A DNA stretch of 41,085 nt from a filamentous cyanobacterium Phorm 6 (GTDB lineage Bacteria > Cyanobacteriota > Cyanobacteriia > Cyanobacteriales > Microcoleaceae), in contig PVWI01000015.1 in NCBI GenBank assembly GCA_003003725.1, positions 1-41,085 of the forward strand. Reading direction: 5' to 3'. Below the pieces are notes generated by a model. That model did not search any database. It worked only from the letters and a program-made list of their open reading frames with translations, and was not told the origin of the DNA. The position numbers and the translations under genes are program-made. Shown piece after piece: positions 4,733-35,125 of this stretch (its first letter is position 1; each line of letters begins with the position of its first letter).

Positions 4733-7234
4733 TCAAGCTGTTTTGATAGAATTTGTTTGGCTCGATCTCCGTGGCATTAAAAGCCGATAAGCGAGCAGTT
4801 TCACGCAGTCATTCACGATAAACCACGCCAGCGCATAGCCCCAAACGAACAGTGCCCAACCCCAGCCAAGGGGTGTCATAAATAGCCCATAAACTGCGAT
4901 TACCGTCGCCACAGCTTGCGTCCCGAATACTGCCATCAATAAAATGCGTGCGGGACGAATTGACCAAAATGGGCCGCGTGTGCGCGTCAGGAAGATCGTC
5001 AGATGTCCCGCTACAGATAGCTTCAAATACATCAAGGTTTGAATGTGATCGCGATCGAGATGAAAGATGCGCTCCCCAATATAAAACAAGCCGAACGCGG
5101 CGACGACCCCGATCGCACCCAGAACTGTAGAAATCGCTAACACTAGGCGCATATCCCAAGCTTCAGGCTGATTGCGGTATTGCACATTATCATAGGCGAT
5201 CGACAAAATAGCACCATCATTAAGCAATGCCAGGATCACAATCATCACTGCGGTGACTGGGTAAAAGTTAAACACCAAAATCGCCAACGTCATCAGCAAC
5301 AAGACGCGCAGTGTCTCAGCGATGCGATAGATGGCGTAGCTGTTCATCCGTTGGAAAATGCGGCGACTCTCCTTGATCGCATCAATAATCACGGACAGTC
5401 CGGGCGTTGTCAGCACGATCGAAGCCGCAGCCCGCGCCGCATCTGTTGCACCCGAAACAGCGATGCCGCAATCAGCCTTCTTCAATGCAGGGGCATCATT
5501 GACTCCATCGCCCGTCATTCCCACAATGTGATTCTGTTTTTGCAGCACATCGACAATGTGGAACTTATGTTCGGGGAACACTTGAGCGAAACCATCCGCA
5601 TTTTCGATCAACTGTGTGACTGTCGCAGTTTCTTGCTGCTTTGAATCGCCTAGCCCACTTGCATCGAGAATGTTTGTGCCAAGTCCCAACTTCTTAGCGG
5701 TTTCTTGCGCGATCGCAATGGCATCGCCTGTCACCATCTTGATTTTGATGCCCATCTTGACTGCGCTGGCGATCGTTGATTCAGCATCATCCCAAGGCGG
5801 ATCAAACAGCGGTAACACACCCATAAATTGCCATTGATCATCTTTCTCCGATCGCGCCACACCCAATGAGCGAAAGCCGCGTTTTGCAAAGTCGTTGACC
5901 GCCTTATCAACATCAGGCTTCACCTGGTCAGCATTCTTTGACAAGGCTAGAATCACCTGTGGCGCGCCTTTCGTCACTTTGAACGTTTTGCCATCCGCGT
6001 CCTTCACCGTTGCCTCAGTGCGCTTGTGAACCGGGTCAAAGGGGGTGAAGTGAACAGTCTTGTAAGTCTTTAATGAATCCTGATCTTTGAGTCCGTCTAG
6101 AACAGCGAGATCGATCGTGTCGTCATTGTCTGCACTTGATGCCAGTGCGCCATTAAAAATCACTTGATCAGCGGGAATATTGTTGACACTGAATGGATCG
6201 CCCAAAGTCAGCTTGTTCTGGGTCAGAGTGCCAGTTTTATCCGCGCATAACACGTCCACACCAGCCAATTCCTCGATCGCCACCAACCGACTAACGATCG
6301 CTTTTTTCTGAGAAAGTTTCCGTGCACCAACTGCCATCGTCACCGATAACACCGTTGGCATCGCCACAGGAATCGAGGCAACAGTCAGCACCAAAGCAAA
6401 CTGTAACGTTTCGAGGATAGGGTCATGACGGAACAGCGCAACAGTAATAATCAAGGTCACCAATACAAGCGCGAGGAGGATTAGATAGTTGCCAATCTTG
6501 AGCACTGCCTTTTGAAAATGGCTGTCCGTGTGAGCTTCCTGCACCAGTTGTGCCGTCTTGCCGAAATAGGTTTTGGCGCCTGTGGCATAAACCAGCGCGT
6601 TACTCTCACCCCGACGCACGATCGAGCCAGAGAATACCGCGTCGCCAGAGTTGCGTGTAGCGGGTAGGGATTCACCCGTCAGTGTGGATTGGTCGATCGA
6701 CATTGAATCGCCATCTAACAAGCGGGCATCGGCTGGCACAATGTTGCCCAAGCGCAGCCGAATCACATCGCCCGGAACCAGTTCACGCGCTGGTATAGTC
6801 GCCCATTGCCCATCACGTTTCACCTGAGTCTGAGTTGCAAGTTTAGCCTTCAAAGCCTCGATCGCATTGCCTGCTTGACGCTCCTCCCAAAAGCCGACTA
6901 CCGCATTAGCCAACAGTAAAACGAGAATGATAAAGAAATCTGCCCAGTGTTGCACCACGCCTGACAAAATCACGGCGACTTCGATCATCCACGGAATCGG
7001 ACCCCAGAAATAGCTGAGAAATTTTAGGAGTGGGTTAGTCTTCTTTTCCTCAATCTCGTTCGGTCCATTTTCAGTCAGGCGCTTTTTTGCTTCTGCTTGC
7101 CGGAGACCATCGGGTGACGACTCTAATCTTTTCTGCACTTCTGGTAGCGGCAGAGTTTTCAAATCATCCTTGGCATCGGGCTGCGCTTTGGGATCTTTGG
7201 GCGCTTTAAGAGCTTTGGTACTGGGTTTCATCAT
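4733..7234 (-). CDS. Plasma-membrane H+-ATPase type P-ATPase (P3A)
   Basis: 833 aa, close to fungal and plant proton pumps in layout but without a long regulatory C-terminus. The N-terminal region is Lys/Pro/Asp-rich. Two helices follow from about residue 80, then the actuator loop with LTGES (about 186-190), then M3-M4 with 'ASIPVAMPTVLS'. The phosphorylated Asp is D332 in ADKTGTLTQN. The ATP domain has KGAP, MVTGD and MTGDGVNDAPALKKAD. Six helices form the C-terminal half. These pumps use ATP to export H+ and build a membrane potential. AAGGA lies 6 nt before the first of two adjacent ATG codons. The polyphosphate kinase gene ends 53 nt upstream on the same strand, so the two are probably one operon joining polyphosphate-based nucleotide supply to ion pumping. 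Proton specificity is inferred from family features. Confidence 0.93.
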   Translation of the reverse strand: MMKPSTKALKAPKDPKAQPDAKDDLKTLPLPEVQKRLESSPDGLRQAEAKKRLTENGPNEIEEKKTNPLLKFLSYFWGPIPWMIEVAVILSGVVQHWADFFIILVLLLANAVVGFWEERQAGNAIEALKAKLATQTQVKRDGQWATIPARELVPGDVIRLRLGNIVPADARLLDGDSMSIDQSTLTGESLPATRNSGDAVFSGSIVRRGESNALVYATGAKTYFGKTAQLVQEAHTDSHFQKAVLKIGNYLILLALVLVTLIITVALFRHDPILETLQFALVLTVASIPVAMPTVLSVTMAVGARKLSQKKAIVSRLVAIEELAGVDVLCADKTGTLTQNKLTLGDPFSVNNIPADQVIFNGALASSADNDDTIDLAVLDGLKDQDSLKTYKTVHFTPFDPVHKRTEATVKDADGKTFKVTKGAPQVILALSKNADQVKPDVDKAVNDFAKRGFRSLGVARSEKDDQWQFMGVLPLFDPPWDDAESTIASAVKMGIKIKMVTGDAIAIAQETAKKLGLGTNILDASGLGDSKQQETATVTQLIENADGFAQVFPEHKFHIVDVLQKQNHIVGMTGDGVNDAPALKKADCGIAVSGATDAARAAASIVLTTPGLSVIIDAIKESRRIFQRMNSYAIYRIAETLRVLLLMTLAILVFNFYPVTAVMIVILALLNDGAILSIAYDNVQYRNQPEAWDMRLVLAISTVLGAIGVVAAFGLFYIGERIFHLDRDHIQTLMYLKLSVAGHLTIFLTRTRGPFWSIRPARILLMAVFGTQAVATVIAVYGLFMTPLGWGWALFVWGYALAWFIVNDCVKLLAYRLLMPRRSSQTNSIKTA

Positions 7235-7287
7235 GGATCTTCCTTTTGTTTTTACTACCGTCAGCTTTATTGAAAGGATTGCCGTCT

Positions 7288-8220
7288 TCAGCTCTCGCTC
7301 TCAAGCATTACCTTCGCTTGCAAAAGTTCCAGGTGTTGTGCCTCACTGACCTTGGGATAGTGAAGATTGAGTTCCTTTAATTGGGCATAAATAATGCCTG
7401 CTACAGCAAGGCGCGTAAACCATTTATGATCGGCTGAGATGATGTGCCAAGGTGCCCATTCTGTGCTGGTGTGATTGAACATATCTTCGTAAACAGTCAT
7501 GTAGTCATCCCAAAAGGTGCGCTCCTTCGCATCATTGGTGGAGAATTTCCAGTTTTTCTCAGGTCGATAGATTCGTTCTAGAAAGCGTTCTTTCTGTTCT
7601 TCTTTAGAGACATTCAAGAAAAATTTGAGGATAATAGTCCCGTTGCTGACCAGATATTTCTCGAACTTGTTGATTTCCTCAAAGCGATCTTTCCAAATGT
7701 GTTTGTCTATTAAACTAGGTGGAAGTTGTCGCTGAGCTAGAATTTCTGGATGGACTCGCGTTATTAATATCTCCTCGTAGTAAGAGCGGTTAAAAATGCC
7801 AATTTTTCCCCGTTCTGGTAGGGCTTTAGAACATCGCCACAAATAGTCATGATCCAACTCTTCTGTAGACGGAGCTTTAAAGCTATGCACTTGGCACCCC
7901 TGGGGATTGATACCAGACATGACGTGCTTGATAGTGCTATCTTTACCCGCCGCGTCCATCGCTTGAAAAATAATCAGCAACGAGTAAGTATTTTGGGCAT
8001 AAAGCATATCTTGGTAATGTTTTAAAGCCTCAATCACTTCCTGCAAGTCACTTTTAGAGTCCGACTTCTTCAGATAATGGGCTTTATAACCTGGGTCGTA
8101 GTCTTTAGCCAGGGAAATTTTCTGCCCTGGCGGCACAATCAAGGGACGCATAAATTCGGCATGACTTTTGGTGTCAAATAGATTTAACGATGAATCTTTC
8201 TGGTTATGGTGTTTGGTCAT
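7288..8220 (-). CDS. Polyphosphate kinase 2 family protein (PPK2)
   Basis: 310 aa, one PPK2 domain. It has a Walker A-like loop 'FQAMDAAGKDSTIKHVM' (85-101), a Walker B-like segment 'GIFNRSYYEE' (141-150), and an Arg-rich lid region around 'KERFLERIYRPEKNWKF'. PPK2 enzymes move phosphate between polyphosphate and nucleotides (ADP/ATP, AMP/ADP or GDP/GTP) in the cytoplasm. The single domain of about 300 aa with this lid suggests class I or III; the preferred direction cannot be read from the sequence. The H+-ATPase gene follows 53 nt downstream. A paralogous 3' end of about 40 codons survives at 19934-20056. Its upstream gap is crowded with inserted elements, so its promoter may now be displaced. 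Confidence 0.93.
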   Translation of the reverse strand: MTKHHNQKDSSLNLFDTKSHAEFMRPLIVPPGQKISLAKDYDPGYKAHYLKKSDSKSDLQEVIEALKHYQDMLYAQNTYSLLIIFQAMDAAGKDSTIKHVMSGINPQGCQVHSFKAPSTEELDHDYLWRCSKALPERGKIGIFNRSYYEEILITRVHPEILAQRQLPPSLIDKHIWKDRFEEINKFEKYLVSNGTIILKFFLNVSKEEQKERFLERIYRPEKNWKFSTNDAKERTFWDDYMTVYEDMFNHTSTEWAPWHIISADHKWFTRLAVAGIIYAQLKELNLHYPKVSEAQHLELLQAKVMLESES

Positions 8221-8986: not shown

Positions 8987-9011
8987 ACTCAACTTGAATC
9001 AACGCGGATCG
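8987..9011. promoter_or_regulatory. 25-bp conserved motif, copy 1 (possible regulator site)
   Basis: ACTCAACTTGAATCAACGCG plus GATCG matches 24 of 25 bases of the sequence at 24265-24289 upstream of the HPF-like gene. The core contains the palindromic 9-mer TTGAATCAA. It lies upstream of the PPK2-H+-ATPase operon. It is now 770 bp away, but only about 150 bp if the MITE and the IS605-like remnant are removed. The regulator is unknown. Confidence 0.4.
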
Positions 9012-9304: not shown

Positions 9305-12232
9305 TCATACTTTTAACGCTCTATGGTCTAATTTGGTTTGCAGTTCGCTCAGGTGAACCCCGATCAGATTAGGTAGAACGAGATTGGCAGCGCCAACACG
9401 ACTGGGAGAACCGATGCCGATCGACCCCATACCAGCAGCGATCGCGGCGGCAACACCAACCGGGGCATCTTCCACCACCACACAGTGAGCTGGAGCAAGT
9501 CCTAACTGAGTTGCGGCGTACAGAAAAATGTCAGGGGCTGGCTTAGGACGATCGACGCTGTAGCCATCTGCGATCGCATCGACGTGCTCGGCAATCCCCA
9601 ACTTTTCAATTACAGCTTTTGCATTCTTGCTGGCAGATCCGATCGCAATTTTCATACCCGCTTGCCTCAGTTCGTCCAAAAGTGCGATCGCTCCTGGCAA
9701 AAGATTCTTCGGTGTGATCGTTTGAATCGATGCCACATAGTAGCGATTTTTGCGCTCCATCATTTCCTGGATCTGTGCCTCTGAGTACGGGCGATCGCCT
9801 ATAATCAGCATCAAAGATTTGCGTCGAGCGACACCTCGCAGTGCCTCATTTGCCTTTCGGTTAAAGGGCAGATGCTCTTCGTCAGCCAGTTTCTGCCAAG
9901 CACGGTAATGAAATTCAGCCGTATCTGTGAGAACCCCGTCAAGGTCGAAAATGAACCCCTGAATGTCAGTCGCGTGATCGTCAGATCCATGAGCCTGCGA
10001 GGGCACTAGATCGAAGCAGTGCCAAGTGCCGCGCCAGTTCAGCTTGAATTTGAGACGAGTCCAGGTGGGAGGGAGGTGCGGTGTGGCAACGGGGCCACTG
10101 TCTTTCAGTTGAATGCCGCCAAAGCCAAACACCACAGCTTGCCAAACTCCGCCTGCGGAAGCCCCATGAATACCATCTATGGTATTGCCGCGATTATCAT
10201 CAAGATCGACCATCGCAGCCTGCATCAAATGCTTGTAGGCATCTTCTACGTCACCTAGATTGGCGGCGAGGCTCGCGTGAATGGCGGGTGTCAGGGACGA
10301 TCCGTAGGTGCTGTCTGTGCGTGGCGCGTAGTAGTCCCAGTTTTTTTGCAGCACATTACAATAATCCGGGAGAGCTTGCGTGTCTCGCATCAAGTAGAGG
10401 AGCATCAACACATCGGGCTGCTTGAGTACCTGCCGCTGATTTGTTGCGTCAATACCGAGAATTGCTTGCATCGAGCGATCGCGGGGTTCATACTCGCTTA
10501 AATCGATATCCTGAAGCTGGAAAAACCCCTCAAACTGCTCGATTAGACCTGTTTTAGCATCGTGAGGAATATACAGCTTGTCAATCATTGTCTGCCACAG
10601 CCGCCGCTGCTCTGCGGTGAGTTGCAGTCGCCCGGCCAGTGCAGTCGCCCGATTCTCATTCTGAGAGGCTTCGCCAACGGGAAACGTATGTTGTAGCCAG
10701 TCGTAGACAGCTACAGCCTTTTCGAGATGCCACTGCACCATCCGATTGGTGAAGGCATTGTTATTGACTCGCTCATGGTATTCATCGGCTCCAATCACCC
10801 CGCACAGTTCATACCGTTCCTGCTCGGCGTGCCACTCCAGCCGGCTCATCCAGAACAGCGCCGTGTCGAGGATGATTTCAGCGCCATAGTCGCGCAGCCA
10901 GTTATCGTCGCCCGTTGCCTGCCAGTAGTGCCAGACAGCATAAGCAATGTCAGCACTCAGATGAATTTCGCGATCGCGACACCAGATGCGGACTACTTCT
11001 GCGTATGGGTCGGTCGATATCGACGTTTGGGGCGTTACCTCATCGCCAGTGGTGGCACTTTCCCAGGCAAACATTGCGCCCTTGTAGCCACTATGGGCGG
11101 CTTTGCGACGTGCGCCCTCCAGGGTGTGATAGCGATAGGTGAGCAAGTTGCGGGCGATCGCAGGTTGCGTAAAAGTAAAAAAGGGCAGGATGAAAATTTC
11201 GGTATCCCAAAAAATATGCCCTCGGTAGCCAAACCCAGACAGCGTTTTAGCCGGAACGCTGACCCGATCGTTGTGGGAGGAGGCACTGATCAGGAGTTGA
11301 AACAGGTTGTAGCGCACTGCCAACTGAGCCGTGCGATCGCCCTCGATCTCAAGATCGCTGTGTTCCCAAACGGCATCCCACGCCCGCCGATGAGCATCAA
11401 GGAGCACCCTGTATGCTGGCAGATTCGCCAGTTTGTCCTGGGCTGCTTGCAGTGGCATCTCAACATCCTGGGACGTAAACACTGTCGCGACCTTTTCAAT
11501 GCTGATAGTCTGTCCCTCGATCGCACTGAAGACGCTCAATACGGTAGAGTCACCGCGAGCATTTGTCACCTGAAAAGAGGCATCAGCCCCGATCACCGCC
11601 AGTTTGAACGCCATACTGAGATCAATGTGAGACCTGCGGGTGCGTAGCTGTAGCCAAACGCCCCGCCCTGTTCCGTGTTCGATCTGTCCCGAATCGATCT
11701 GCTCCCAGTGGTTAAAGCCTTGAGTGTCGGGATAACCATTGAGGCTGGACTGTACCTCGATCGTGCCGCTAAAGTCGATCGGTGTGATTTGACAGCACAG
11801 TCCTAATACGTGCCGATCGTCCAGACTAGCAAAGCGCTCAAACTTTAAATCCAACGTCTTGCCAGTGGGACTACGCCAGCGCACTGAGCGGCTCAACAGC
11901 CCATGATGTAAGTCAAGCTGCCGCTCGTAGTGAAGGATTTCGCCGCGATCGAGCCGAAACCGTTCTCCGTCAAGAGCGATCGTCAAAGATAGCCAGTCAG
12001 GACAGTTTGCCAACTCGGTATAGATGACAGGCACATCGTCATAAACCCCATGAATTAAGGTGGCTGGCAACGCCTCTGGGTATCCTTCCTCAAAACTGCC
12101 CCGCGTCCCTAAACAACCGTTGCCGATCGTAAAGACGGTTTCTCTAGCACACAACTTCTCTGGATCAAATTCAGGTTCGGTCAACGTCCAATCTGTGTAA
12201 ATCAAATCACGAGAGTGTTTTGGAATGTTCAT
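9305..12232 (-). CDS. GH65 disaccharide phosphorylase fused to beta-phosphoglucomutase
   Basis: 975 aa, two enzymes in one chain. Residues 1 to about 745 form a GH65 phosphorylase (maltose, trehalose or kojibiose type). The general acid is the Glu in 'GVIGADEYHERVNNNAFT', and the C-terminal lobe has 'ATPHLPPTW'. Residues 757-975 form a HAD-type beta-phosphoglucomutase: FIFDLDGVLTDT with nucleophile D and acid/base D two residues later, the SAS motif, and 'RPKPAPDIF...VVEDAPVGVAAA'. Phosphorolysis of an alpha-glucoside gives beta-glucose 1-phosphate, which the fused mutase turns into glucose 6-phosphate without release. The start chosen is the ATG at 12232. Its first four bases, ATGA, overlap the stop of the histidine phosphatase gene. 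An earlier in-frame start would run into that gene. Which disaccharide is used is not readable. Confidence 0.92.
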   Translation of the reverse strand: MNIPKHSRDLIYTDWTLTEPEFDPEKLCARETVFTIGNGCLGTRGSFEEGYPEALPATLIHGVYDDVPVIYTELANCPDWLSLTIALDGERFRLDRGEILHYERQLDLHHGLLSRSVRWRSPTGKTLDLKFERFASLDDRHVLGLCCQITPIDFSGTIEVQSSLNGYPDTQGFNHWEQIDSGQIEHGTGRGVWLQLRTRRSHIDLSMAFKLAVIGADASFQVTNARGDSTVLSVFSAIEGQTISIEKVATVFTSQDVEMPLQAAQDKLANLPAYRVLLDAHRRAWDAVWEHSDLEIEGDRTAQLAVRYNLFQLLISASSHNDRVSVPAKTLSGFGYRGHIFWDTEIFILPFFTFTQPAIARNLLTYRYHTLEGARRKAAHSGYKGAMFAWESATTGDEVTPQTSISTDPYAEVVRIWCRDREIHLSADIAYAVWHYWQATGDDNWLRDYGAEIILDTALFWMSRLEWHAEQERYELCGVIGADEYHERVNNNAFTNRMVQWHLEKAVAVYDWLQHTFPVGEASQNENRATALAGRLQLTAEQRRLWQTMIDKLYIPHDAKTGLIEQFEGFFQLQDIDLSEYEPRDRSMQAILGIDATNQRQVLKQPDVLMLLYLMRDTQALPDYCNVLQKNWDYYAPRTDSTYGSSLTPAIHASLAANLGDVEDAYKHLMQAAMVDLDDNRGNTIDGIHGASAGGVWQAVVFGFGGIQLKDSGPVATPHLPPTWTRLKFKLNWRGTWHCFDLVPSQAHGSDDHATDIQGFIFDLDGVLTDTAEFHYRAWQKLADEEHLPFNRKANEALRGVARRKSLMLIIGDRPYSEAQIQEMMERKNRYYVASIQTITPKNLLPGAIALLDELRQAGMKIAIGSASKNAKAVIEKLGIAEHVDAIADGYSVDRPKPAPDIFLYAATQLGLAPAHCVVVEDAPVGVAAAIAAGMGSIGIGSPSRVGAANLVLPNLIGVHLSELQTKLDHRALKV

Positions 12233-13865: not shown

Positions 13866-13903
13866 TTTGGGTTGCTCCATCTCCAGTTGCGGATTTCCGG
13901 TCG
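13862..13903 (-). pseudogene. Leftover 3' tail of a phosphoketolase gene
   Basis: Just before the aldolase start, one frame reads RPEIRNWRWSNPK followed by a stop that overlaps the aldolase ATG. The intact phosphoketolase at 25987-28410 ends with [13 protein letters not shown] in the same region. An 18-bp run is identical between 13883-13900 and 26056-26073. A TAG stop stands immediately upstream in frame, and before it no phosphoketolase is recognisable. An adjacent short frame (DNFDRTDTAEARQWLDEA) could be another remnant of unknown origin. The most natural reading is that a phosphoketolase gene once sat directly before the aldolase. Confidence 0.6.
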
Positions 13904-14020
13904 CTATGCTTCGTCCAACCACTGTCGCGCTTCAGCGGTGTCGGTGCGATCGAAGTTGTCGATCGTGTTTTTTGTGTTGTTAACAATAGCTACCTATGAT
14001 TGTTTAAAGGTTTGTCCACT

Positions 14021-14797: not shown

Positions 14798-14864
14798 AGA
14801 AACCTTCTCCTTAATAATCAATTTTTGCTTAGAGGACGATAGTCAGGGCAATAAGCGTGATTGC

Positions 14865-20199: not shown

Positions 20200-20242
20200 G
20201 ATATTGTCCTGTTTGAATTACGAATTACGAGTTGCGAATTAT

Positions 20243-22545: not shown

Positions 22546-22572
22546 ATAATTTCGCGATAGTAAGGGAGCAAG

Positions 22573-23571: not shown

Positions 23572-23583
23572 AACTTTGCCTCT

Positions 23584-25932: not shown

Positions 25933-25986
25933 AGTTGCCTTTTTTTGAGTGAATGTGACCATTGACTGCTTGCCTTGGCATAATAT

Positions 25987-28410
25987 TCAGATGGAATAAC
26001 TAGGATCTGGCTGTCTGTCTTTCCAACCCTCGACATTCCGTCCTGTCCCCCACTTCCAGTTGCGGATTTCCGGCAAGTCTTCGCCGTGCTTGTCGATATA
26101 ATGCTTATGCTCGATCAACTTGTCCTGCATCATCTGCTTGAGATAGTCTCCCTTACTACCCAAATGCAGCAGACGATCGACCACATCTTGCACCAGATGA
26201 AAGCGATCCAGGTCATTTTGCACCCTCATGTCAAAAGCCGTTGTGATCGTCCCCTCTTCCTTGTAGCCCCGGACGTGGAGGTTGTGATTGGTGCGGCGGT
26301 AGGTCAGACGGTGAACGAGGGAAGGGTATCCGTGAAAGCCAAAGATGATGTGCTTGTCTTTGGTGAAGAGTGAATCGTAATCCGTTTCGCTCAGTCCGTG
26401 CGGGTGTTCGCTCTCGGATTGCAACTTCATCAGATCGACGACATTAATTACCCGAATTTTCAGATCGGGCAGATGTTCTCGCAGGATGGAAACGGCAGCC
26501 AAAATCTCCAGCGTCGGCGTATCTCCACAGCAAGCCATCACCACATCCGGCTCAGTATCTTGGTCGTTGCTAGCCCATTGCCAGATGCCAATGCCTTCAG
26601 TGCAATGCAATATCGCCGCCTCCATACTCAGCCATTGAGGGAGCGCGTGTTTGCCAGCAACTACCACATTCACGTAGTGTCGGCTGCGTAGACAGTGATC
26701 GAAGACCGACAGCAGACAGTTCGCGTCGGGTGGCAGGTACACACGCACGATATCGGCTTTCTTGTTGATTACGTGATCGATGAAACCGGGGTCTTGGTGC
26801 GTGAAGCCGTTATGATCCTGCTGCCAGACATGGGAGGCGAGCAGATAGTTTAGCGATGCGATCGGTCGTCGCCAGGGCAGTTCCGATGTTACCTTCAGCC
26901 ATTTGGCGTGCTGGCTGAACATCGAATCAACAATACGAATAAACGCCTCATAGCTGTTGAATAGCCCGTGCCGCCCGGTCAGCAAATAGCCTTCCAACCA
27001 ACCTTGGCACTGGTGTTCGCTGAGCATCGAGTCCAGCACTTGTCCGGCGGGCGCGAGGAATTCATCATTTTTTTCTTCTCGCGCTTCCCACTGACGATTA
27101 GTGACTTCAAACACCGCGCCCAAAAGATTCGAGAGTGTCTCATCGGGGCCGAAGATGCGGAAATTGCGCTGATTCAGCTTGACTACATCACGCAGAAATT
27201 TGCCCAGCACGAGGGTATCTTGACCGTCAACGGCACCAGGTGCAGGTACATGAACCGCGTGGTGGCGGAAGTCTGGCATTTGCAGGTCGTGCAGCAGTAG
27301 ACCGCCGTTGGCGTGGGGGTTTGCACCCATGCGCCGATCGCCCTTCGGGGCCAGTTCAGCCAATTCCGGCAGAAGTCGGCCATCTTCATCAAACAGTTCT
27401 TCTGCTTTGTAGCTTTTCATCCAACTTTCTAACTGCTGGACATGATCGGGATGCTCGGAGTTCACCAGTAACGGCACTTGGTGCGATCGCGATGTGCCTT
27501 CGATTTGCAAACCATCGACGACTTTTGGCCCCGTCCAGCCCTTGGGCGATTTTAGGACGATTACAGGCCAGCGCGGGCGAGTAGTATCGTTTTGGTTCCG
27601 CGCATTACTTTGGATTTGCCGGATATGCTCGATCGCCTTGTCCAGGGTGCTGGCCATAAGTTCGTGCATCTTTTCCGGCTCGTCGCCTTCCACAAAGTAA
27701 GGTGTCCAGCCGCAGCCTCGGAGAAATTGCTCCAATTCTTCATGCTCGATGCGAGCCAAGACGGTTGGGTTGTTGATTTTGTAGCCATTCAGGTGCAGGA
27801 TTGGCAGCACAGCACCGTCGGTAATTGGGTTGAGTAACTTGTTAGACTGCCATGCTGTCGCTAAGGGGCCTGTCTCCGCTTCCCCGTCGCCGATGACGCA
27901 AGCAACAATTAGATCGGGATTGTCAAAGGCAGCGCCGAAGGCATGACTGAGCGAGTATCCCAACTCACCTCCTTCGTGAATTGACCCCGGCGTTGTCGGC
28001 GCAACGTGGCTGGAAATCCCACCAGGAAATGAGAATTGCGTGAACAGCTTTTTCAACCCAGCTTCGTCCTGAGTGACGTTGGGATAAACTTCGCTCCAGG
28101 TGCCTTCGAGGTAAACGTTGCCCACAATTGCTGGGCCACCGTGACCGGGGCCAGCGATGTAGAGCATATCTAGGTCATATTTCTTGATTACCCGATTCAA
28201 ATGCACATAGATGAAGTTCTGTCCCGGTGTTGTACCCCAGTGTCCGACGACTAGCGGTTTGACGTGCGAAAGTTTCAGCGGCTCCTTTAGCAGCGGGTTG
28301 TCGTAGAGGTATATCTGTCCAACAGACAAATAGTTAGCGGCACGCCAGTAAGCATCAATGTTATGAAGTAATGTCGGGGAAAGTGTGCGGGAAAGCATTT
28401 TTAGTTTCAT
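25987..28410 (-). CDS. xfp: Phosphoketolase (xylulose 5-phosphate/fructose 6-phosphate type)
   Basis: 807 aa, full length. The thiamine diphosphate site is seen in '[14 protein letters not shown]' (about 174-187), with 'NGYKINNPT' after it. 'AGPGHGGPA' lies near the N-terminus. '[12 protein letters not shown]' and '[12 protein letters not shown]' are the phosphoketolase signatures that set it apart from transketolase. It cleaves xylulose 5-phosphate or fructose 6-phosphate with phosphate to acetyl-phosphate, bypassing decarboxylation. No phosphotransacetylase or acetate kinase gene lies in the window. Oleate hydratase follows at 54 nt. Upstream is a 108-bp repeat in the 5' region, starting 20 nt before the ATG, which may affect transcription. 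A second phosphoketolase tail lies before the aldolase gene. Confidence 0.96.
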
Positions 28411-28538: not shown

Positions 28539-28543
28539 ATGCA

Positions 28544-29057: not shown

Positions 29058-31574
29058 CTATTGTACGTGTTGATAGAAAACTCGTTTAACAGTTTCTGCA
29101 CTGAGGATGTAAAGTCCGACAATTGCTGCCAGCACTAACAGGAATTCGAGCGGCAAGGATTGGAATCCCAGTAAACTTGCAAGCGGAGTATAGGGAAGGA
29201 AGAGTGCGATCATGACGATCGCGATCGTTGACATCAACAAATACTTTCCCGGTTTGCTCGCGAGAATCGACTGCCGCGTCCGAATCACCAGCACAATCAT
29301 GGATGCAGAAATCACCGATTCCATAAACCAGCCCGTTCTGAATTGCGCTGGGTTGGCGTGCAGCAGAAATATTAATGCTGCAAACGTGAGATAATCAAAG
29401 ACTGAACTGAGTAAACCAAACACCAACATAAATTTGCGGATGAACTTGATATCCATGCGGCGGGGTTTGTTTACCAATTCCCTGTCAACGCGATCCGTGG
29501 CGATCGTCATTTCGGGGAAATCAGTCAATAGATTTGTGAGTAAAATCTGACTGGGCAGTAGCGGCAAAAACGGTAAAAACAGAGAAATACCTGCCATGCT
29601 GAACATATTGCCGAAATTAGCGCTGGTTGCCATAAACACGTATTTAAGCGTATTAGCAAACGTCACCCGTCCTTCCTTCACACCCTCAACCAAAACATTT
29701 AGGTCTTTTTCCATCAGCACAATGTCGGCTGCTTCCTTCGCCACATCAACCGCACTCTCAACGGAAATGCCCACATCCGCAGCATGAAGCGCCGAGGCAT
29801 CGTTAATCCCATCTCCGAGATAGCCCACCACATTCCCCGCTTTTTTCAGCGCCATGATGATCCGCTCTTTTTGATTCGGCTCAACTTCAGCAAAGACATT
29901 GGTTTCTCCAACACGATGAAGTAGCGCTTCATCACTGAGTTTTTGGAGTTCGGCACCAGTCAAAACCTTTGGTTTGGGTAGTCCTATCTGTTGAATGATA
30001 CTGATCGCCACAGCCCGACTATCGCCCGTAATCATCTTCGGGGTGATGCCCAGGGCTATGAATTCTTGGAGGGTGTCAGCAATACCTGCTTTTGGTGGAT
30101 CGAACAGGGCAAGATAGCCCATAAATGTCATGTTCGTTTCATCGTCTTTGCTGAAGGAATCGCGATCGAAATTGCGGTAAGCAACTCCCAATACTCGAAA
30201 TCCTTTGCTGCCCAATTCTTCAGCGCGTTGTTGAATCTTGTCCTGCTGCGGCGCAATGTCGATCGCAATTCCGTCACCAGTCTCTACCGTTGAGCAGACA
30301 TCCAGAATATTCTTGAGTGCTCCTTTGGTGACAATTAGATGCGTATTCTCTTGTTTAAACAGAATGCTTAAGCGTTTGCGGTTGAAATCGTAGGGCACTT
30401 CATCGAGCTTTTGATAGCCTGAGATGTCGAATGTCTTGTGTTGACGAATCGCTTCGTCGATCGGATTTACATAGCCAGATTCAGATGCAGCATTCAAATA
30501 AGCGTAGAGCAAAACCCGATCGCTCTCCTTGCCATCCACATCAACCGCCGAGTGAATTTTCACCTCCCCTTCCGTCAACGTGCCCGTCTTATCCGTACAA
30601 AACACGTTCATACTGCCAAAATTCTCGATCGCAGCCAACCGCTTCACAATCACCTGCTGCTGCGCCATTTGCTTAGCGCCGCGAGACAAATTGAGGCTGA
30701 CAATAGCAGGCAGAAGTTGAGGAGTCAGGCCAACCGCCAGCGCTAGGGAAAATAGAAATGATTCCAAAACCGGGCGTTTGAGGTAAACATTTGCCGCAAA
30801 TATCAAGACAACCAAAATTAGCGTCACCTCCATCAGAAAGTAACCAAACTTGCTGAGTCCCTGTTCAAATTCGGTTTCCGGCGGCCTAAGTTTCAATCGT
30901 TCCGATACCTTACCAAACTCAGTTTCCTTTCCGGTATGCACCACCACTGCTTTGCCAGTACCGCTGATAACATTAGTACCCATATAAAGGATGTTAGTGC
31001 GCTTACCCAAATCGGTTTCTGCGGGCAAAACGCCGCTGAGTTTGTCAGCCGGATAGGTTTCTCCAGTCAGCGCCGCTTCATTCACCGACAAATCTTTAGA
31101 CTCTAAAATTAGGCAGTCACCGGGAATACTATCGCCCGCATTAAGCAACACAATGTCACCCGGAACCACTTCCTCATTGGGGATTTCTTGAGATTTACCA
31201 TCCCGCAACACCGTGGCTTTTACTTGCACCAATGCCAGTAATTTCTCAACAGCATCCGTAGCTCCTTTTTCTTGCCAAAATCCCAAGAATCCGCTAATTA
31301 GGACGATCGCCAAAATGATGATCGCATCTGCCGCATCTTTCAGAAAGATCGAAAGCACGGCGGCAAAAATCAGAATCAAAATAATCGGACTTTTGAACTG
31401 ATTGAGCAACAGCGTCAGTGAGTTCGATTTTTGTTTTTGTTTCAGGCTGTTCGCACCGTATTCGCTCAGGTGGTGTTGAGCATCCTGACTGCTTAAACCT
31501 GCGGGCGTAGACTTCACCTGAGCCAGCACGCGATCGGCTGGTAAGCTCCAAAACGTGGAAAGTTGTGAATTCAT
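29058..31574 (-). CDS. mgtA: Magnesium-translocating type P-ATPase (P3B, MgtA-like)
   Basis: 838 aa. Phosphorylated Asp is D328 in 'NVFCTDKTGTLTEG'. The actuator loop has 'NEAALTGETYP' (about 165-175). Helix 4 reads 'LAVGLTPQLLPAIVSLNL', the characteristic P3B form. The hinge is 'GYLGDGINDASALHAADVGISV'. Helices 5-10 end the protein ('RTGWFMESVISASMIVLVIRT', 'LGFQSLPLEFLLVLAAIVG'). Relatives import Mg2+ driven by ATP at low Mg2+. The usual N-terminal extension is short here. No leader peptide or Mg2+ riboswitch is evident upstream. A near-identical 3' fragment is found at 4201-4470. A palindromic motif relative and a degenerate MITE lie in its 5' flank. Confidence 0.93.
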   Translation of the reverse strand: MNSQLSTFWSLPADRVLAQVKSTPAGLSSQDAQHHLSEYGANSLKQKQKSNSLTLLLNQFKSPIILILIFAAVLSIFLKDAADAIIILAIVLISGFLGFWQEKGATDAVEKLLALVQVKATVLRDGKSQEIPNEEVVPGDIVLLNAGDSIPGDCLILESKDLSVNEAALTGETYPADKLSGVLPAETDLGKRTNILYMGTNVISGTGKAVVVHTGKETEFGKVSERLKLRPPETEFEQGLSKFGYFLMEVTLILVVLIFAANVYLKRPVLESFLFSLALAVGLTPQLLPAIVSLNLSRGAKQMAQQQVIVKRLAAIENFGSMNVFCTDKTGTLTEGEVKIHSAVDVDGKESDRVLLYAYLNAASESGYVNPIDEAIRQHKTFDISGYQKLDEVPYDFNRKRLSILFKQENTHLIVTKGALKNILDVCSTVETGDGIAIDIAPQQDKIQQRAEELGSKGFRVLGVAYRNFDRDSFSKDDETNMTFMGYLALFDPPKAGIADTLQEFIALGITPKMITGDSRAVAISIIQQIGLPKPKVLTGAELQKLSDEALLHRVGETNVFAEVEPNQKERIIMALKKAGNVVGYLGDGINDASALHAADVGISVESAVDVAKEAADIVLMEKDLNVLVEGVKEGRVTFANTLKYVFMATSANFGNMFSMAGISLFLPFLPLLPSQILLTNLLTDFPEMTIATDRVDRELVNKPRRMDIKFIRKFMLVFGLLSSVFDYLTFAALIFLLHANPAQFRTGWFMESVISASMIVLVIRTRQSILASKPGKYLLMSTIAIVMIALFLPYTPLASLLGFQSLPLEFLLVLAAIVGLYILSAETVKRVFYQHVQ

Positions 31575-31889: not shown

Positions 31890-34505
31890 TCACTGCGACT
31901 TTTTGTTGGCACTTTTATTCAGAAACTTCAAAGACTCAAACCAAAGTAAACTAATCGCTCCACCTGCTAAACAGATACCGAGATCCCTCGGATGTAGAAA
32001 AGAGAAACTGAACAAGTTACGCAAGAAAGGAACGTAAAGTATCAGAGCGAGAAAAACGAGTCCTCCCCCAATTACCCACCAAAGCGCCACGTTAGGAGAT
32101 TGCAAAACTTTGAGGCTGAGGTGCGAGGAGGAACGTTCGCTCAAAATCAATCCTAAATTTGCTAAAATTAACGTGGTAAAAGTTAACGCACGGGCATCAA
32201 ATTCGCCCTGTTTGCGATAGAGTGCTAGCACAAAGATCGCGAGCACGATCGCCAAAATTCCCACTCCTTGCAGAAGTGCTAAACCGATTGTTTTCCGACC
32301 AAATAATGGCTCATTAGGGTTGCGAGGCGGACGGTTCATCACATCTGGTTCTGCGGGTTCGGCTTCAAAAACGATCGAGCAGGCTGGATCGATAATCAAA
32401 TGGAGAAATGCTATATGAACAGGAAGCAATACTAACGGCAACTTAAACAAGACTGGAATCAAAGACATCCCAGCGATCGGAATATGAATCGCTAGAAGAT
32501 ATCCCATCGCTTTGCGGAGATTATCAAAAATTCGCCGCCCAAGTTTGACCGCTTGGACGATCGATGAAAAATCATCATTTAATAACACTAACGCGGCCGA
32601 CTCACGAGCAACATCTGTTCCTCGCTCCCCCATTGCAATCCCAATTTGGGCAGATTTGAGCGCAGGAGCATCATTAACACCATCCCCCGTCATGGCAACA
32701 ACTTCGCCTTGATCTTTCAAAGCATTGACTAACCGCAGCTTTTGTTCGGGGACGGCTCGTGCAAAGATATTCGTATTTTGAATGCGCTGTTGAAGGTCAG
32801 CATCACTCATTTTATCCAATTCTGCTCCAGTCAGGATGGCTCCCATTTCCTGCAATCCAATCTGTCGGGCGATCGTTTGAGCAGTACCTGGATAATCGCC
32901 TGTAATCATCACGACTCGAACGCCAGCAGTATGACATTCTTGAATCGCTGCTGCAACTGTTGGACGCACTGGATCGGACAATCCCACTAATCCGATAAAT
33001 TGAAAGGGAAAGTCATGTTGTTTATCCGGTAAATGAGCCGGATTAAGCGATGGATGCGGCGGCAAAAAAGGCGGCGGCGCATCGAGCAGAGACGCTTTAG
33101 CAACGCCTAATACCCGCAAGCCTAGATTTGCCATTTCGCTAACTTGTGTGGCTAGAATTTGCTGTTGTTCGGGCGTAAAATGACAGAGATCGGCGATCGC
33201 CTCCGGTGCACCTTTGGCAGCAATTTCATACTGCTTACCATCAGCGGATTGCCAAACCTGAGACATTGCTAAGAGTTCTGGTGAGAGCGAGTATTCTCGC
33301 AACAGTTGCCAATCGTTGTGCAAATGTTCGGTGTGGGCGAGATAGCGATCGCCCAATAGTTTAAATGCCTTCTCCATCGGATCGAACGGATCTCGTTGAC
33401 TCGCGAGAATGCAGAATTCGACTAATTGATGTACAGCTTCCGGCAGCGCATCTTGTGGATGCAATCCCAAATCGTAAGCCTGAGTATTTTCTGCTGGGTT
33501 ATAGGGGAATAGCTGCTGCACTGCCATCACATTCAGAGTCAACGTCCCCGTTTTGTCCACACACAAAACTGTCGCAGAACCCAAAGTTTCAACGGCGGAA
33601 GCACGACGCGCCAATACATGGTTCTGTGAAATGCGCCACGCTCCCAAAGCTAAGAAGATTGTCACCACAACTGGAAATTCATTGGGCAAAATTGCCATCG
33701 CTAAGGTAATGCCCGCGAGAACTCCTTTGAGCCAATCTCCTCGCGTCACTCCATAAATAATGACGATCGCCACACACAAAGATAAGGCGATACCAAACAA
33801 ACGGCTTACTAACCGATTCATTTCCCGTTGTAAGGGAGTGATCTCAGGCTTCACTGTTTGTAAAGCTTTGCCAATCTTGCCCATCTCCGTCTGAGCACCG
33901 ATCGCTTGGACTTGAACAATTGCTTGTCCCTGCACCACCAATGTCCCAGAATAGACAAAGGGCAACTCATCGCCGCCTGGCCGTGCCATCTCCACTTTGC
34001 CCTGGGCGGCAACTTTGCGAACGGGTAGAGATTCCCCAGTTAGTAACGATTCATCGGTTGAAAGATTTGTACAAGACAGGACGATCGCATCCGCAGGCAC
34101 GCGATCGCCCTCTGCTAGCACTAAGACATCGCCCCGGACAACTTCTCGCCCAGCAATTCGTTTGCGCTGTCCATCCCGAATCACCAAAGCACGAGGACTG
34201 GAAAGATCGCGCAAGGCTTCTAGGGCGTGTTCGGTTTTGCCTTCTTGGTAGAGGCTAATCCCGGTGATGAAAAAGACGAAACCTAGCAAAATCAAGGCTT
34301 CCTGGAGATCACCTAAAATCCAATAGATGATGCCGCCTCCGCCCAACAAGAGGAAGATCGGATCTTTAACTGTGTCAATCGCGATCGACCAAATACTCCG
34401 AGATTGAGCCGAGGGAAGTTCGTTGTATCCGTCGTCTTTGAGTCGCGCAATTGTTTCTTGTTCAGACAACCCACGAATTGTTAAGGCATCGAATGATTTG
34501 ACCAT
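31890..34505 (-). CDS. Cation-transporting P-ATPase (P2-type, calcium-pump-like)
   Basis: 871 aa. N-terminal 'LSEQETIARLKDDGYNELP' is the cation-ATPase N domain. LTGES is at about 155-159, and D317 in 'VLCVDKTGTLTLN' is phosphorylated. The helix 4 motif is 'MAILPNEFPVVVTIFLALG' (PNEFP, where Ca2+ pumps have PEGLP). The ATP domain ends with 'AMTGDGVNDAPALKSAQIGIAMGERGTDVARE'. The helix 6 region 'HIAFLHLIIDPACSIVFEAEP' lacks the N..D pattern of SERCA in full, so the transported ion is not certain; Ca2+, Na+ or Mn2+ are candidates. It is the third full P-ATPase in the window and is followed by mgtA after a 315-nt gap holding a degenerate MITE. A PNPOx-like gene lies upstream. Confidence 0.92.
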   Translation of the reverse strand: MVKSFDALTIRGLSEQETIARLKDDGYNELPSAQSRSIWSIAIDTVKDPIFLLLGGGGIIYWILGDLQEALILLGFVFFITGISLYQEGKTEHALEALRDLSSPRALVIRDGQRKRIAGREVVRGDVLVLAEGDRVPADAIVLSCTNLSTDESLLTGESLPVRKVAAQGKVEMARPGGDELPFVYSGTLVVQGQAIVQVQAIGAQTEMGKIGKALQTVKPEITPLQREMNRLVSRLFGIALSLCVAIVIIYGVTRGDWLKGVLAGITLAMAILPNEFPVVVTIFLALGAWRISQNHVLARRASAVETLGSATVLCVDKTGTLTLNVMAVQQLFPYNPAENTQAYDLGLHPQDALPEAVHQLVEFCILASQRDPFDPMEKAFKLLGDRYLAHTEHLHNDWQLLREYSLSPELLAMSQVWQSADGKQYEIAAKGAPEAIADLCHFTPEQQQILATQVSEMANLGLRVLGVAKASLLDAPPPFLPPHPSLNPAHLPDKQHDFPFQFIGLVGLSDPVRPTVAAAIQECHTAGVRVVMITGDYPGTAQTIARQIGLQEMGAILTGAELDKMSDADLQQRIQNTNIFARAVPEQKLRLVNALKDQGEVVAMTGDGVNDAPALKSAQIGIAMGERGTDVARESAALVLLNDDFSSIVQAVKLGRRIFDNLRKAMGYLLAIHIPIAGMSLIPVLFKLPLVLLPVHIAFLHLIIDPACSIVFEAEPAEPDVMNRPPRNPNEPLFGRKTIGLALLQGVGILAIVLAIFVLALYRKQGEFDARALTFTTLILANLGLILSERSSSHLSLKVLQSPNVALWWVIGGGLVFLALILYVPFLRNLFSFSFLHPRDLGICLAGGAISLLWFESLKFLNKSANKKSQ

Positions 34506-34648: not shown

Positions 34649-34675
34649 CCCCATCTACTGTTTATTTGTACCCAC

Positions 34676-35125
34676 CTACTTACTGCTTGGCCCATCAGTC
34701 GTGCGTCCGGTCATTTCGCCGTGAGAGATGCGGTAGATTGCTATTACCTCTGCACGTCCCCAAGAGTCGATCCAAGTTCGATTGATCGCAGGCGAAAGTG
34801 TGGGATTTTCCCCTTTGATTAATTGCATGGCTAGATCGATGTCTTGCTGCTCGGTTAGGCGATCGGCTCGGCCACTCACGATCACGCTGCGCCAATGCAG
34901 CGGATCGTGAATTTCTTCTACCTGTAAGCAGACTTCTGGATTCACGTTTATGTCATGAGTCTTCATACCTTCGGTTGTAAACAGGTAGATATCGGAATCT
35001 TTGAAATAATAGTGCATTGGCATCACGTAGGGTTTTCCTTCGTGTATATAGCCAAGATGACCGTATCCTACTTGTTGTAGAAACTCTTGAATTTCTTTTT
35101 GTCCCATTTCATCAATATCTAACAT
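34676..35125 (-). CDS. Pyridoxamine 5'-phosphate oxidase-like flavin-binding protein
   Basis: 149 aa. The split-barrel PNPOx-like fold is seen from 'LDIDEMGQKEIQEFLQQVGYGHLGYIHEGKPYVMPMHYYF' through 'IYLFTTEGMKTHDINVNPEVCLQVEEI' and 'WRSVIVSGRADRL'. Members of this Pfam group bind FMN or F420-like cofactors or heme; the true pyridoxine pathway role needs residues that I do not see. The start MLDIDEM is set by AAGGAG placed 7 nt before the ATG. It is encoded before the P2-type ATPase, 170 nt apart. Similar small flavin proteins occur in dormancy regulons of other bacteria (inference for its role here). Confidence 0.85.
   Translation of the reverse strand: MLDIDEMGQKEIQEFLQQVGYGHLGYIHEGKPYVMPMHYYFKDSDIYLFTTEGMKTHDINVNPEVCLQVEEIHDPLHWRSVIVSGRADRLTEQQDIDLAMQLIKGENPTLSPAINRTWIDSWGRAEVIAIYRISHGEMTGRTTDGPSSK

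Follow-up and report, generated by a model that had tools for sequence, protein, structure and literature searches.

The window, the whole stretch analysed here, comprises 41,085 nucleotides from the filamentous cyanobacterium Phorm 6. Pfam and NCBIfam profile searches of its proteins found every gene family that an earlier sequence-only reading had named in the 4733-35125 region, all on one strand as claimed, here the minus strand (Table 1). Three labels needed correction, namely the baeRF3 type, the Ca2+ ion of the third P-ATPase and the plain HPF call, and a histidine phosphatase had been overlooked. Unrelated cargo also lies among the island genes: GST, a NACHT protein, a cupin, and DUF4331.

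Table 1. Features of the island and its margins in the Phorm 6 window.
Feature	Position	Strand	Basis
89-residue copy of Mg-ATPase 3' end, rearrangement scar	4201..4470	-	264-nt direct repeat
Plasma-membrane type H+ P-ATPase	4733..7234	-	TIGR01647, 1069 bits, cut-off 615.5
Polyphosphate kinase 2 (PPK2)	7288..8220	-	PF03976 227 bits; TIGR03709 392 vs cut-off 247
GH65 phosphorylase-beta-phosphoglucomutase (beta-PGM) fusion	9305..~12235	-	Pfam GH65 N/m/C + HAD
Histidine phosphatase, GPM2/SHB17 type, predicted fructose/sedoheptulose bisphosphatase	12229..12840	-	Nearest solved relatives, signature motifs
Class I fructose-bisphosphate aldolase	12837..13922	-	PF00274, 456 bits
Double PRC-barrel protein	14021..14821	-	PF05239, two stretches
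Decayed copy of HPF gene start, beside baeRF	20074..20219	-	88% direct repeat of 24101-24246
Balon-like baeRF protein; accessory	20243..21382	-	Balon 8rd8 full-length match
Rhodanese, ArsP permease, thioredoxin-like; accessory sulfur/redox block	22024..23826	-	PF00581, PF03773, PF13192
Short HPF-like ribosome hibernation protein; accessory	23864..24226	-	PF02482
Oleate hydratase (MCRA family); accessory	24310..25962	-	PRK13977, 724 vs cut-off 567
Phosphoketolase, island-type second copy (F6P/X5P -> acetyl phosphate, predicted)	25987..28410	-	Pfam XFP_N/XFP/XFP_C
MgtA-type Mg2+ P-ATPase	29058..31574	-	TIGR01524, 804 vs cut-off 611
Third P-ATPase, Ca/PMR1-like, ion uncertain; accessory	31890..34505	-	Pfam
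PNPOx-like flavin protein	34676..35143	-	PF12900

The beta-PGM part of the GH65 fusion passes the equivalog model TIGR01990 (237 bits vs cut-off 189), and the nearest solved structure to the fusion is kojibiose phosphorylase 3WIQ; the GTG listed as its start, at 12436, probably precedes the true one. The histidine phosphatase gene shares 4 and 7 bases with the genes on either side. Among solved structures, the protein is closest to GPM2 (2A6P, E 2.4e-35), followed by SHB17 (YKR043C, E 6e-26), and bisphosphatase activity is published for both (PMC4535450). The window's is the only one of the cyanobacterial islands read that has this type of phosphatase; none was found in the islands of G020 (a sister species), G374, G422, Spirulina, Nodosilinea, or Nostoc NMS7. 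PPK2 is closest to the class III structure 6AU0 (E 6e-97). A single acetate kinase and PPK1 are encoded outside the island in the same genome, where a probable transketolase match was seen; Tal, Rpe, and Rpi are assumed from the Calvin cycle.

The window phosphoketolase scores well over the cut-offs of three phosphoketolase subfamily models. It is 70-71% identical to the cell's own housekeeping copy (G000:C466) and 79-81% identical to plasmid copies of Rhodococcus, Lichenicola, Hymenobacter, and Frondihabitans; judged by these identities, it is a second copy of foreign-lineage origin. The ATP-sensing motif of SeXPK-type phosphoketolases is given as PWX2HX3YRX7HXRX31R (PMC10365998), and all eight of its residues are intact in the housekeeping copy. 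The window enzyme departs from this motif: its X7 spacer is X6, and W703 is replaced by S, with the other seven residues retained. The one-residue deletion is shared by a clade of nine phosphoketolases (window plus eight) that spans four phyla (SH-aLRT 98). Because the deletion falls in the ATP-sensing motif, the phosphoketolases of this clade may be insensitive to ATP.

Of the three full P-ATPases previously called H+-, Mg2+-, and Ca2+-like, the H+ and Mg2+ types hold. Ca2+ specificity is uncertain: the third pump reaches none of the NCBIfam equivalog cut-offs (best 484 of 798 bits, PMR1-type Ca). The H+ P-ATPase gene also occurs in the Rhodococcus and Nodosilinea clusters, the MgtA-type gene adjoins island genes in G020, G374, and a Leptolyngbya plasmid, and the third pump is present in G374 and Nodosilinea. 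PRC-barrel genes are also annotated in the Pseudanabaena, Polymorphobacter, and Frondihabitans clusters.

Two putative ribosome hibernation factors are present. For the short HPF-like protein, the Pfam family assignment stands (35, cut-off 23.7), and the yfiA equivalog does not (27 of 40.9 bits); such a protein occurs in 7 of 195 genomes of the order (E 1e-10). The baeRF protein belongs to the baeRF group as first read, but family 7 (187.7 bits) outscores family 3 (157.6 bits). Balon (8rd8, residues 11-369, E 1e-11) is the one solved structure related to it over the full length. The protein lies under the cut-off of the NCBIfam Balon equivalog (AOC03_06830; 154 of 330 bits), and its sequence has neither a GGQ nor a NIKS motif. 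The intact HPF gene is 2.5 kb away in the window, and relatives of the baeRF gene stand directly beside an HPF gene in G121, G153, and contig C494 of the same genome. This match makes the protein a homologue of Balon, and some relatives have it in a pair with HPF. The decayed copy of the HPF gene start beside baeRF also shows as a 60% match with stops at 19960-20199.

Oleate hydratase, found in 6 of 292 cyanobacteria, lies near phosphoketolase in Spirulina, Nodosilinea, Nostoc, and Leptolyngbya. Its anchors have partners in 8/14 cyanobacterial loci vs 5/68 loci elsewhere, and it is a loose associate of the island. The HPF-Trx-ArsP order is kept in Spirulina CCY15215 (82-95%).

The sister species G020 keeps the flanks and the core in the same order at 91-98% identity (97% for the PNPOx-like protein). 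Its island lacks 5 of the 13 named items, namely both hibernation factors, oleate hydratase, the third P-ATPase, and the ArsP block; gene content thus differs strongly between two species of one genus, and this exact set as one system is not supported. A 264-nt direct repeat (95%) links the scar at 4201-4470 to 29062-29325 and is present in G020 too.

Parts of the island turn up again in at least six cyanobacterial lineages, beyond G020 in G374:C3, G422:C561, G036:C286, Spirulina CCY15215, Nodosilinea PCC 7104, and Nostoc NMS7, and Leptolyngbya NIES-3755 has a related gene set on a plasmid. Among the loci fetched, another island family lies within 10 kb in 4/7 island-type GH65-beta-PGM loci vs 0/54 ordinary ones, the identity threshold between the two types having been picked after neighbourhood data were seen. 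Housekeeping phosphoketolase loci have an island family within 10 kb in 0 of 20 cases. In Pseudanabaena, the tblastn neighbourhood test found neither aldolase nor phosphatase within 10 kb.

The metabolic core also recurs on plasmids of Alphaproteobacteria, Gammaproteobacteria, Actinomycetota, and Bacteroidota. Four members make up this recurring core: a phosphorylase, a phosphoketolase, a class I aldolase, and a histidine phosphatase. Acetate kinase or PPK2 frequently accompanies them. Plasmid phosphoketolases of at least 75% identity have at least one partner within 10 kb in all 11 records (10 by tblastn, one by annotation), and those below 72% in one of five. Phosphoketolase adjoins the aldolase in 9 of 12 plasmid aldolase records of at least 60% identity; two have no phosphoketolase annotated within 12 kb, and the remaining one was left out. 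The histidine phosphatase lies within about 5 kb of phosphoketolase in 24/40 of the plasmid records listed; in other cases it has no annotated phosphoketolase close by. On two Polymorphobacter plasmids, one continuous run of genes comprises tkt, zwf, rpe, ackA, gnd, tal, pgi, rpiA, phosphoketolase, aldolase, and phosphatase. On Sinorhizobium meliloti pSymA, the annotation places the phosphatase gene 16 bp away from a phosphoketolase that shares only 66% identity with the window enzyme. Co-occurrence, on which the sequence-only reading had staked its proposal, is therefore conserved beyond the Phorm 6 genome, as subsets in cyanobacteria and on plasmids elsewhere. Compared by sequence, the core genes recur together across phyla, and a specifically cyanobacterial module is not supported.

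The core's appearance on plasmids in unrelated bacteria points to a common module for survival and not to an accidental gathering of genes. We propose a horizontally mobile, modular survival island with a sugar-to-ATP core of non-oxidative-glycolysis (NOG) type, a reading that we consider evenly poised between right and wrong. The core, we infer, is a natural cassette of this type that turns sugar into ATP, comprising phosphorylase, phosphoketolase, class I aldolase, SHB17/GPM2-type bisphosphatase, and acetate kinase or PPK2. The GH65 phosphorylase would split a disaccharide with phosphate, and beta-PGM would yield G6P at zero ATP cost. Phosphoketolase would convert F6P to acetyl phosphate and E4P, and the aldolase and phosphatase would turn trioses or E4P into F6P or S7P for further rounds, with Calvin-cycle enzymes performing the remaining carbon rearrangements. 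Acetate kinase, encoded elsewhere, would make ATP from acetyl phosphate, and PPK2 would add ATP out of polyphosphate. As no NADH would be formed, the route would need no light, oxygen, or other electron acceptor. With its altered ATP motif, phosphoketolase would run before ATP falls low. The ion pumps would consume the cassette's ATP, HPF and the Balon-like factor would park ribosomes and spare ATP, and the hibernation, lipid, and sulfur blocks would be optional add-ons. The energy logic first proposed, from sugar to acetyl phosphate and polyphosphate to ATP with hibernation, is consistent with this as far as homology goes. Against this reading stand the restriction of the phosphatase, among the cyanobacterial islands read, to the window, the aldolase and phosphatase records with no phosphoketolase annotated close by, the zwf and gnd genes of the Polymorphobacter runs, the loose tie of oleate hydratase, the Pseudanabaena result, and the outcome of a promoter search, which found no motif shared by the island genes. 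We offer more tentatively, as a minority possibility, that a naturally evolved NOG cassette with an ATP-insensitive phosphoketolase travels on plasmids and islands through at least four phyla and enables dormant or desiccated cells to make ATP from stored sugar acceptor-free.

The locus might instead be an insertion-tolerant genomic hotspot that gathers stress genes without functional unity. The strong content shift between two species of one genus, the unrelated cargo, and the internal direct repeats and gene fragments all fit this, but these families reappear across phyla and some adjacencies come back repeatedly (phosphoketolase-aldolase-phosphatase, HPF-Balon), and such settings hold phosphoketolases of two tree lineages plus the 66% one on pSymA. 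We consider a hotspot somewhat unlikely. Since the Polymorphobacter runs include zwf and gnd, an oxidative pentose-phosphate feed is equally possible, and a module of the bifid or heterolactic type, coupling that pathway to phosphoketolase for mixotrophic growth on disaccharides rather than survival, would also explain the GH65, glycogen phosphorylase, or GH130 genes that point to sugar feeding. Such a growth module is unlikely given that no sugar transporter is among the scanned window proteins, that the core associates with PPK2, P-ATPases, PRC-barrel, and universal stress proteins, and that the HPF gene is present in two further cyanobacterial islands.

Very improbable is the original version, in which the whole 30-kb set forms one regulated cyanobacterial dark-anoxia or desiccation system that would compare with the FixK or DosR regulons. 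In its favour, the predicted alphaproteobacterial FixK regulon, as described, includes phosphoketolase, a CBS protein, Hsp20, and a zinc alcohol dehydrogenase (PMC2908626), and a Rhodopseudomonas phosphoketolase is listed with a change of about tenfold, apparently upon anaerobiosis and upon fixK deletion in one of the conditions, and of about 2.4-fold or less in the others (PMC3050613). The five items missing from G020 speak against it, as do the regulatory searches: in the window FNR/FixK-type sites (TTGAT-N4-ATCAA, one mismatch) number 2 vs 1.45 expected, DosR boxes 1 vs 0.6 with none intergenic, and CRP sites are not above chance. No transcription regulator was recognised among the scanned window proteins. 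Palindromes of the form GGACTTTAGTCC were rejected as DosR boxes, being a genome-wide repeat with 335+296 hits; the suggested DosR link is not supported.

NOG is familiar as an engineered pathway. A version that arose naturally and spreads, if true, would mean that evolution reached it too, perhaps for survival without respiration, and would be a source of ready-made enzymes. Such a version would also offer an explanation, open to testing, of how the maintenance energy of resting phototrophs and lichen bacteria is supplied. The proposed survival cassette predicts a phosphoketolase that escapes control by ATP, and in some cyanobacteria it would link ribosome hibernation with one particular source of energy.

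Several known systems resemble parts of the island. The FixK low-oxygen regulon counts phosphoketolase, a CBS protein, and alcohol dehydrogenase among its described members (PMC2908626, PMC3050613), whereas the window has neither a FixK/FNR-like site above chance nor a recognised regulator. As in the described Balon/RaiA pair (PMC10901736), the baeRF protein matches Balon over its full length and its relatives' genes adjoin an HPF/RaiA gene; here, however, it scores under the Balon equivalog cut-off and sits within a sugar-energy island, 2.5 kb from an intact HPF gene. Cyanobacterial SeXPK, described as ATP sensitive (PMC10365998), is of the same family as the window enzyme and alignable over its full length, but has the X7 spacer where the island clade has X6, and the window enzyme additionally has S for W703. 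In cyanobacterial module 272, phosphoketolase and acetate kinase are described as yielding acetyl phosphate, then acetate and ATP (PMC5862535). The island phosphoketolase is likewise predicted to feed acetyl phosphate, but here the module's pair is the housekeeping one at G000:C466, and the island enzyme belongs to a different lineage and lacks an adjoining acetate kinase gene. Closest to the proposed cassette are synthetic NOG (PMC6966089) and its SBP variant SCTPK (PMC10468489), which combine, as the cassette is predicted to, phosphoketolase, aldolase, FBP/SBP phosphatase, and carbon rearrangement and are described as forming acetyl phosphate without NADH or CO2. Those routes were engineered in E. 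coli and yeast, whereas the candidate here is a natural, partly plasmid-borne gene set, and the island adds a phosphorylase entry and a polyphosphate kinase.

The window is one entire contig (G000:C155, 41,085 bases) of a 6.64-Mb genome whose closest named relatives are cyanobacteria. Pfam and NCBIfam confirmed the gene families named in the sequence-only reading, all on the minus strand. The genes fall into tightly spaced runs: aldolase, histidine phosphatase, and GH65-beta-PGM overlap by 4 and 7 nt, phosphoketolase (Pkt) and oleate hydratase lie 24 nt apart, PPK2 and the H+-ATPase 53 nt apart, and the HPF-thioredoxin-ArsP-rhodanese-DUF3122-baeRF run has gaps of 12 to 48 nt. Because these runs are split into larger blocks by gaps of 647, 639, and 1084 nt, the window genes would form several transcription units rather than a single operon.

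Coordinates of features in the window and at related loci
Feature	Position
Direct repeat of Mg-ATPase 3' end, 264 nt	4208-4471 and 29062-29325
Direct repeat of region just upstream of Pkt, 112 nt	4527-4638 and 28427-28538
25-nt repeat	8987-9011 and 24265-24289
GH65-beta-PGM	9305-12235
Histidine phosphatase	12229-12840
Class I aldolase	12837-13922
Cytochrome b561-molybdopterin protein	17654-19432
baeRF (Balon-like)	20243-21382
HPF-like	23864-24226
Pkt	25987-28410
Third (Ca/PMR1-like) P-ATPase	31890-34505
Palindromic repeats	35188-35322 and 40356-40507
NACHT/NCH2 protein	36621-38933
Second HPF-Balon pair, own genome	G000:C494:1803-3437
PPK2 and Pkt remnant, sister species	G005:C197:29226-34245
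Phosphoglucomutase-phosphatase fusion, Rhodococcus plasmid	L231:15919-17410

The 264-nt and 112-nt repeats bracket nearly the same ~24-kb segment, with their order at one end inverted relative to the other. Given this inversion and the lack of a recognized integrase among the scanned window proteins, no simple insertion or tandem duplication fits the repeats, and we rejected the 3' end of the Mg-ATPase gene as a site-specific integration target. Because the sister species G020 carries the Mg-ATPase fragment too, this rearrangement is older than the species split. Elsewhere in the window, the NACHT/NCH2 protein is a weak PADLOC match (PDC-S60), and a NACHT NTPase also lies near island genes on a Pseudanabaena plasmid. 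One protein combines a cytochrome b561-like membrane part with a molybdopterin oxidoreductase domain; it adjoins a DUF4331 protein and has a 36% match in genome G439.

The island Pkt is 70 to 71% identical to the housekeeping Pkt of its own genome (contig C466, close to the sole acetate kinase detected in that genome) and 79 to 81% identical to plasmid copies from Rhodococcus, Lichenicola, Frondihabitans, and Hymenobacter. In a maximum likelihood tree of 34 chosen sequences (SH-aLRT by the quick method, without bootstrap), it groups with Nostoc NMS7, Spirulina CCY15215, and the G020 island (support 99), and this cyanobacterial group joins copies from Actinomycetota, Alphaproteobacteria, and Bacteroidota (SH-aLRT 98). 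Among 29 genomes of the genus, own included, three have a copy above 90% identity, of which one is cut short where its contig ends, and a fourth retains a broken remnant. Based on tree placement, plasmid-copy identities, and this occurrence, the island Pkt was most likely acquired horizontally and is patchy within the genus. In the sister species G005, an island-type PPK2 (79%) adjoins a Pkt remnant of which just the two ends were detected, which appears to be the island in decay. The Pkts of Leptolyngbya, Nostoc KVJ20, and two further cyanobacteria (G374 and G036) form one clade in the same tree (support 100), which lies within the housekeeping copies of cyanobacteria (92, not starred); thus, a second Pkt lineage was recruited to the same gene setting.

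Plasmid records with a Pkt at least 75% identical to the window's numbered 11, and we read the gene annotation around all of them. A window family lies within 10 kb of Pkt on 10 of 10 plasmids by tblastn and on the eleventh by annotation, versus one of five contrast plasmids (Leptolyngbya) with Pkt at 67 to 71.2% by the same 10-kb test; on the Azospirillum contrast plasmid, glycogen phosphorylase and debranching enzyme adjoin Pkt. The order is Pkt-aldolase-H+-ATPase-beta-PGM-GH65 in Rhodococcus AQ5-07, tkt-zwf-rpe-ackA-gnd-tal-pgi-rpiA-Pkt-aldolase-phosphatase in two Polymorphobacter strains, and ackA-glucokinase-beta-PGM family protein-Pkt-phosphatase, with mgtA close by, in Nitrobacter. The Pseudanabaena plasmid carries GH65, sucrose synthase, PRC-barrel, Pkt, and PPK2; aldolase and phosphatase were not found there by tblastn within 10 kb or by annotation. 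In the Rhodococcus AQ5-07 cluster (plasmid L231), the beta-phosphoglucomutase protein is fused to the GPM2/SHB17-type phosphatase, a Rosetta-stone hint that the two may serve one pathway. Source fields give a lichen or polar origin for 7 of the 11 records, with strain-collection bias likely. Lipid-modifying genes occur near two plasmid clusters (L241 and L238), namely cyclopropane synthase (Leptolyngbya, Methylophaga) and cis/trans isomerase (Methylophaga); oleate hydratase, near several of these clusters, is a further such gene.

Within cyanobacteria, the window's flanking genes recur in G020 together with GST, Mg-ATPase fragment, H+-ATPase, PPK2, GH65, aldolase, PRC-barrel, Pkt, Mg-ATPase, PNPOx, and NACHT, arranged as in the window. 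We did not find baeRF, HPF, oleate hydratase, the third ATPase, ArsP, thioredoxin, DUF4331, or the molybdo-cytochrome in this stretch, nor the phosphatase between GH65 and aldolase, and its rhodanese and DUF3122 are different copies (51 to 72%). The optional blocks missing from G020 reappear in other cyanobacteria. In Spirulina CCY15215, Pkt, oleate hydratase, HPF, thioredoxin, ArsP, and DUF3122 are ordered as in the window (82 to 95% identity, except for DUF3122 at 42%), interrupted by an inserted cupin gene. The Nodosilinea PCC 7104 locus comprises Pkt, third ATPase, oleate hydratase, HPF, PNPOx, rhodanese, and H+-ATPase, and that of Nostoc NMS7 comprises Pkt (97%), aldolase, PNPOx, and oleate hydratase. 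On contig G374:C3, a stretch of under 20 kb holds GH65, Mg- and third ATPases, PNPOx, oleate hydratase, Pkt, PPK2 (89%), and aldolase; at 447 kb in a three-contig assembly, this contig is perhaps a plasmid. The cyanobacterial contig G422:C561 has PPK2, DUF3122, rhodanese, a broken-up GH65 (up to 96%), and fragments of aldolase and PRC-barrel, and the Leptolyngbya NIES-3755 plasmid has two Pkts, oleate hydratase, and Mg-ATPase together.

Locus counts covered fetched loci only, with partners sought within 10 kb. Another island family lies near island-type GH65 (at least 67% identity; window and G020 excluded) in 4 of 7 loci versus 0 of 54 ordinary GH65 loci (Fisher p 7e-5). PPK2 has such a partner in 4/7 loci at 75% identity or more versus 1/21 at 60 to 75%, and housekeeping Pkt in none of 20. 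Across 195 genomes of the order, the HPF-like gene occurs in 7, island-type PPK2 in 9, and both in 5 (p 1e-6; 4/6 and p 2e-5 with the own genome dropped), p values that ignore kinship of genomes and use thresholds chosen after the searches. Dropping G020 as well weakens those pairs that rest on few genomes (aldolase-PPK2, p 0.07; aldolase-GH65, p 0.04; GH65-PPK2, p 0.007).

The closest solved relatives of the phosphatase are GPM2 (2A6P), a reported FBPase, and yeast SHB17, for which both FBPase and SBPase activity are reported (PMC4535450). Common to the island phosphatases are RHGxTxW, EWxYGxYEG, and GCPxGE-type motifs, incomplete in some; the phosphatases beside cyanobacterial housekeeping Pkts lack the latter two. 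Among 40 plasmid records listed of 300 phosphatase matches, 24 have Pkt within ~5 kb; S. meliloti megaplasmids account for 16 of these and probably reflect a single event, and the other 8 span seven genera. For the remaining 16, two records read had no Pkt annotated nearby, and 14 were judged only by absence from the 60 Pkt records listed. On a Streptomyces plasmid the phosphatase follows zwf, opcA, pgi, and gnd, a setting that fits a sugar-phosphate role. Class I aldolase is scarce on plasmids (matches in 24 of 72,556 records); of 12 at 60% identity or more, 9 adjoin Pkt, 2 have no Pkt annotated within 12 kb, and 1 record is unannotated. On Nostoc C052, glgX is followed by phosphoketolase, aldolase, and glycogen phosphorylase, with pstB and ppk1 next in line.

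Cyanobacterial SeXPK is reported to sense ATP through the motif PWX2HX3YRX7HXRX31R (PMC10365998). The housekeeping Pkt of the own genome keeps X7 and every residue, whereas all nine members of the window's Pkt clade have X6. This one-residue spacer deletion, the common trait of the clade, occurs in 10 of 58 readable Pkt sequences, the tenth being Monoglobus, just outside the clade in the tree. Six of the nine also have an altered motif residue (W703S in the window, S or T at this position in three further members, and loss of R711 in two), and in the other three, with all eight motif residues kept, only spacing differs. Loss of W703, S or T in only 4/9 members, was rejected as a clade-wide trait. 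The deletion predicts that ATP inhibition may be weaker in this clade.

The baeRF protein aligns over its full length to Balon, and GGQ and NIKS motifs are absent from its sequence. Balon is reported to have RaiA as its most frequent neighbor and to be induced by hypoxia in mycobacteria (PMC10901736). Of the 195 genomes, 70 have baeRF relatives and 7 have the HPF-like gene; these genes lie side by side in G121 and G153 and on own contig C494, where this second pair has an in-frame stop in its HPF match. The closest baeRF (91%) is in G349, with an HPF-like gene on a separate contig, and no such HPF gene was found in two other close carriers (G056 and G341). The HPF-Balon pair is a known module set within the island.

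No FNR, CRP, NtcA, DosR, or HLR1 pattern in the window exceeded chance. The 25-nt repeat was rejected as a shared promoter site, as its core had 6 matches at up to 3 mismatches versus a chance mean of 6.47. GGACTTTAGTCC at 35.2 and 40.4 kb was rejected as a DosR-like site, being a dispersed repeat; the palindromic GGACTNNAGTCC repeats are DosR-box look-alikes with 335 and 296 genome matches. Phosphoketolase is a predicted FixK-set member in alphaproteobacteria, which makes low oxygen a reasonable first condition to test, no more.

The sequence-only observation stands, and the conserved energy-survival association proposed from it is supported in part: the core families recur together, but the set varies, with G020 lacking several blocks. 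A single cyanobacterial system was not borne out, as core families also occur together on plasmids of other phyla. The core's families, co-location, and lineage are shown by homology and gene neighborhood; its enzyme activities, flux direction, and use in dormancy are inferred. Entry by a phosphorylase would yield hexose phosphate at no ATP cost, acetate kinase would make ATP from acetyl phosphate, and PPK2, whose nearest relatives are class III enzymes, could supply extra ATP from polyphosphate. Alternatively, Pkt may receive an oxidative feed via zwf and gnd instead of a non-oxidative cycle; both genes are in the Polymorphobacter clusters.

Among the matches listed from open-licence PMC papers, no title or abstract opening described this gene set, and no paper in that literature was found to combine phosphoketolase and polyphosphate kinase with P-ATPases, phosphoketolase and PRC-barrel with desiccation, or phosphoketolase with universal stress proteins. 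The main new point is a putative natural core, resembling non-oxidative glycolysis, on mobile DNA. Synthetic non-oxidative glycolysis is reported to convert one F6P to three acetyl phosphates (PMC6966089), and an SBP variant exists (PMC10468489). Its essence is aldolase, bisphosphatase, and phosphoketolase; the island core has the aldolase and phosphoketolase families and a predicted bisphosphatase.
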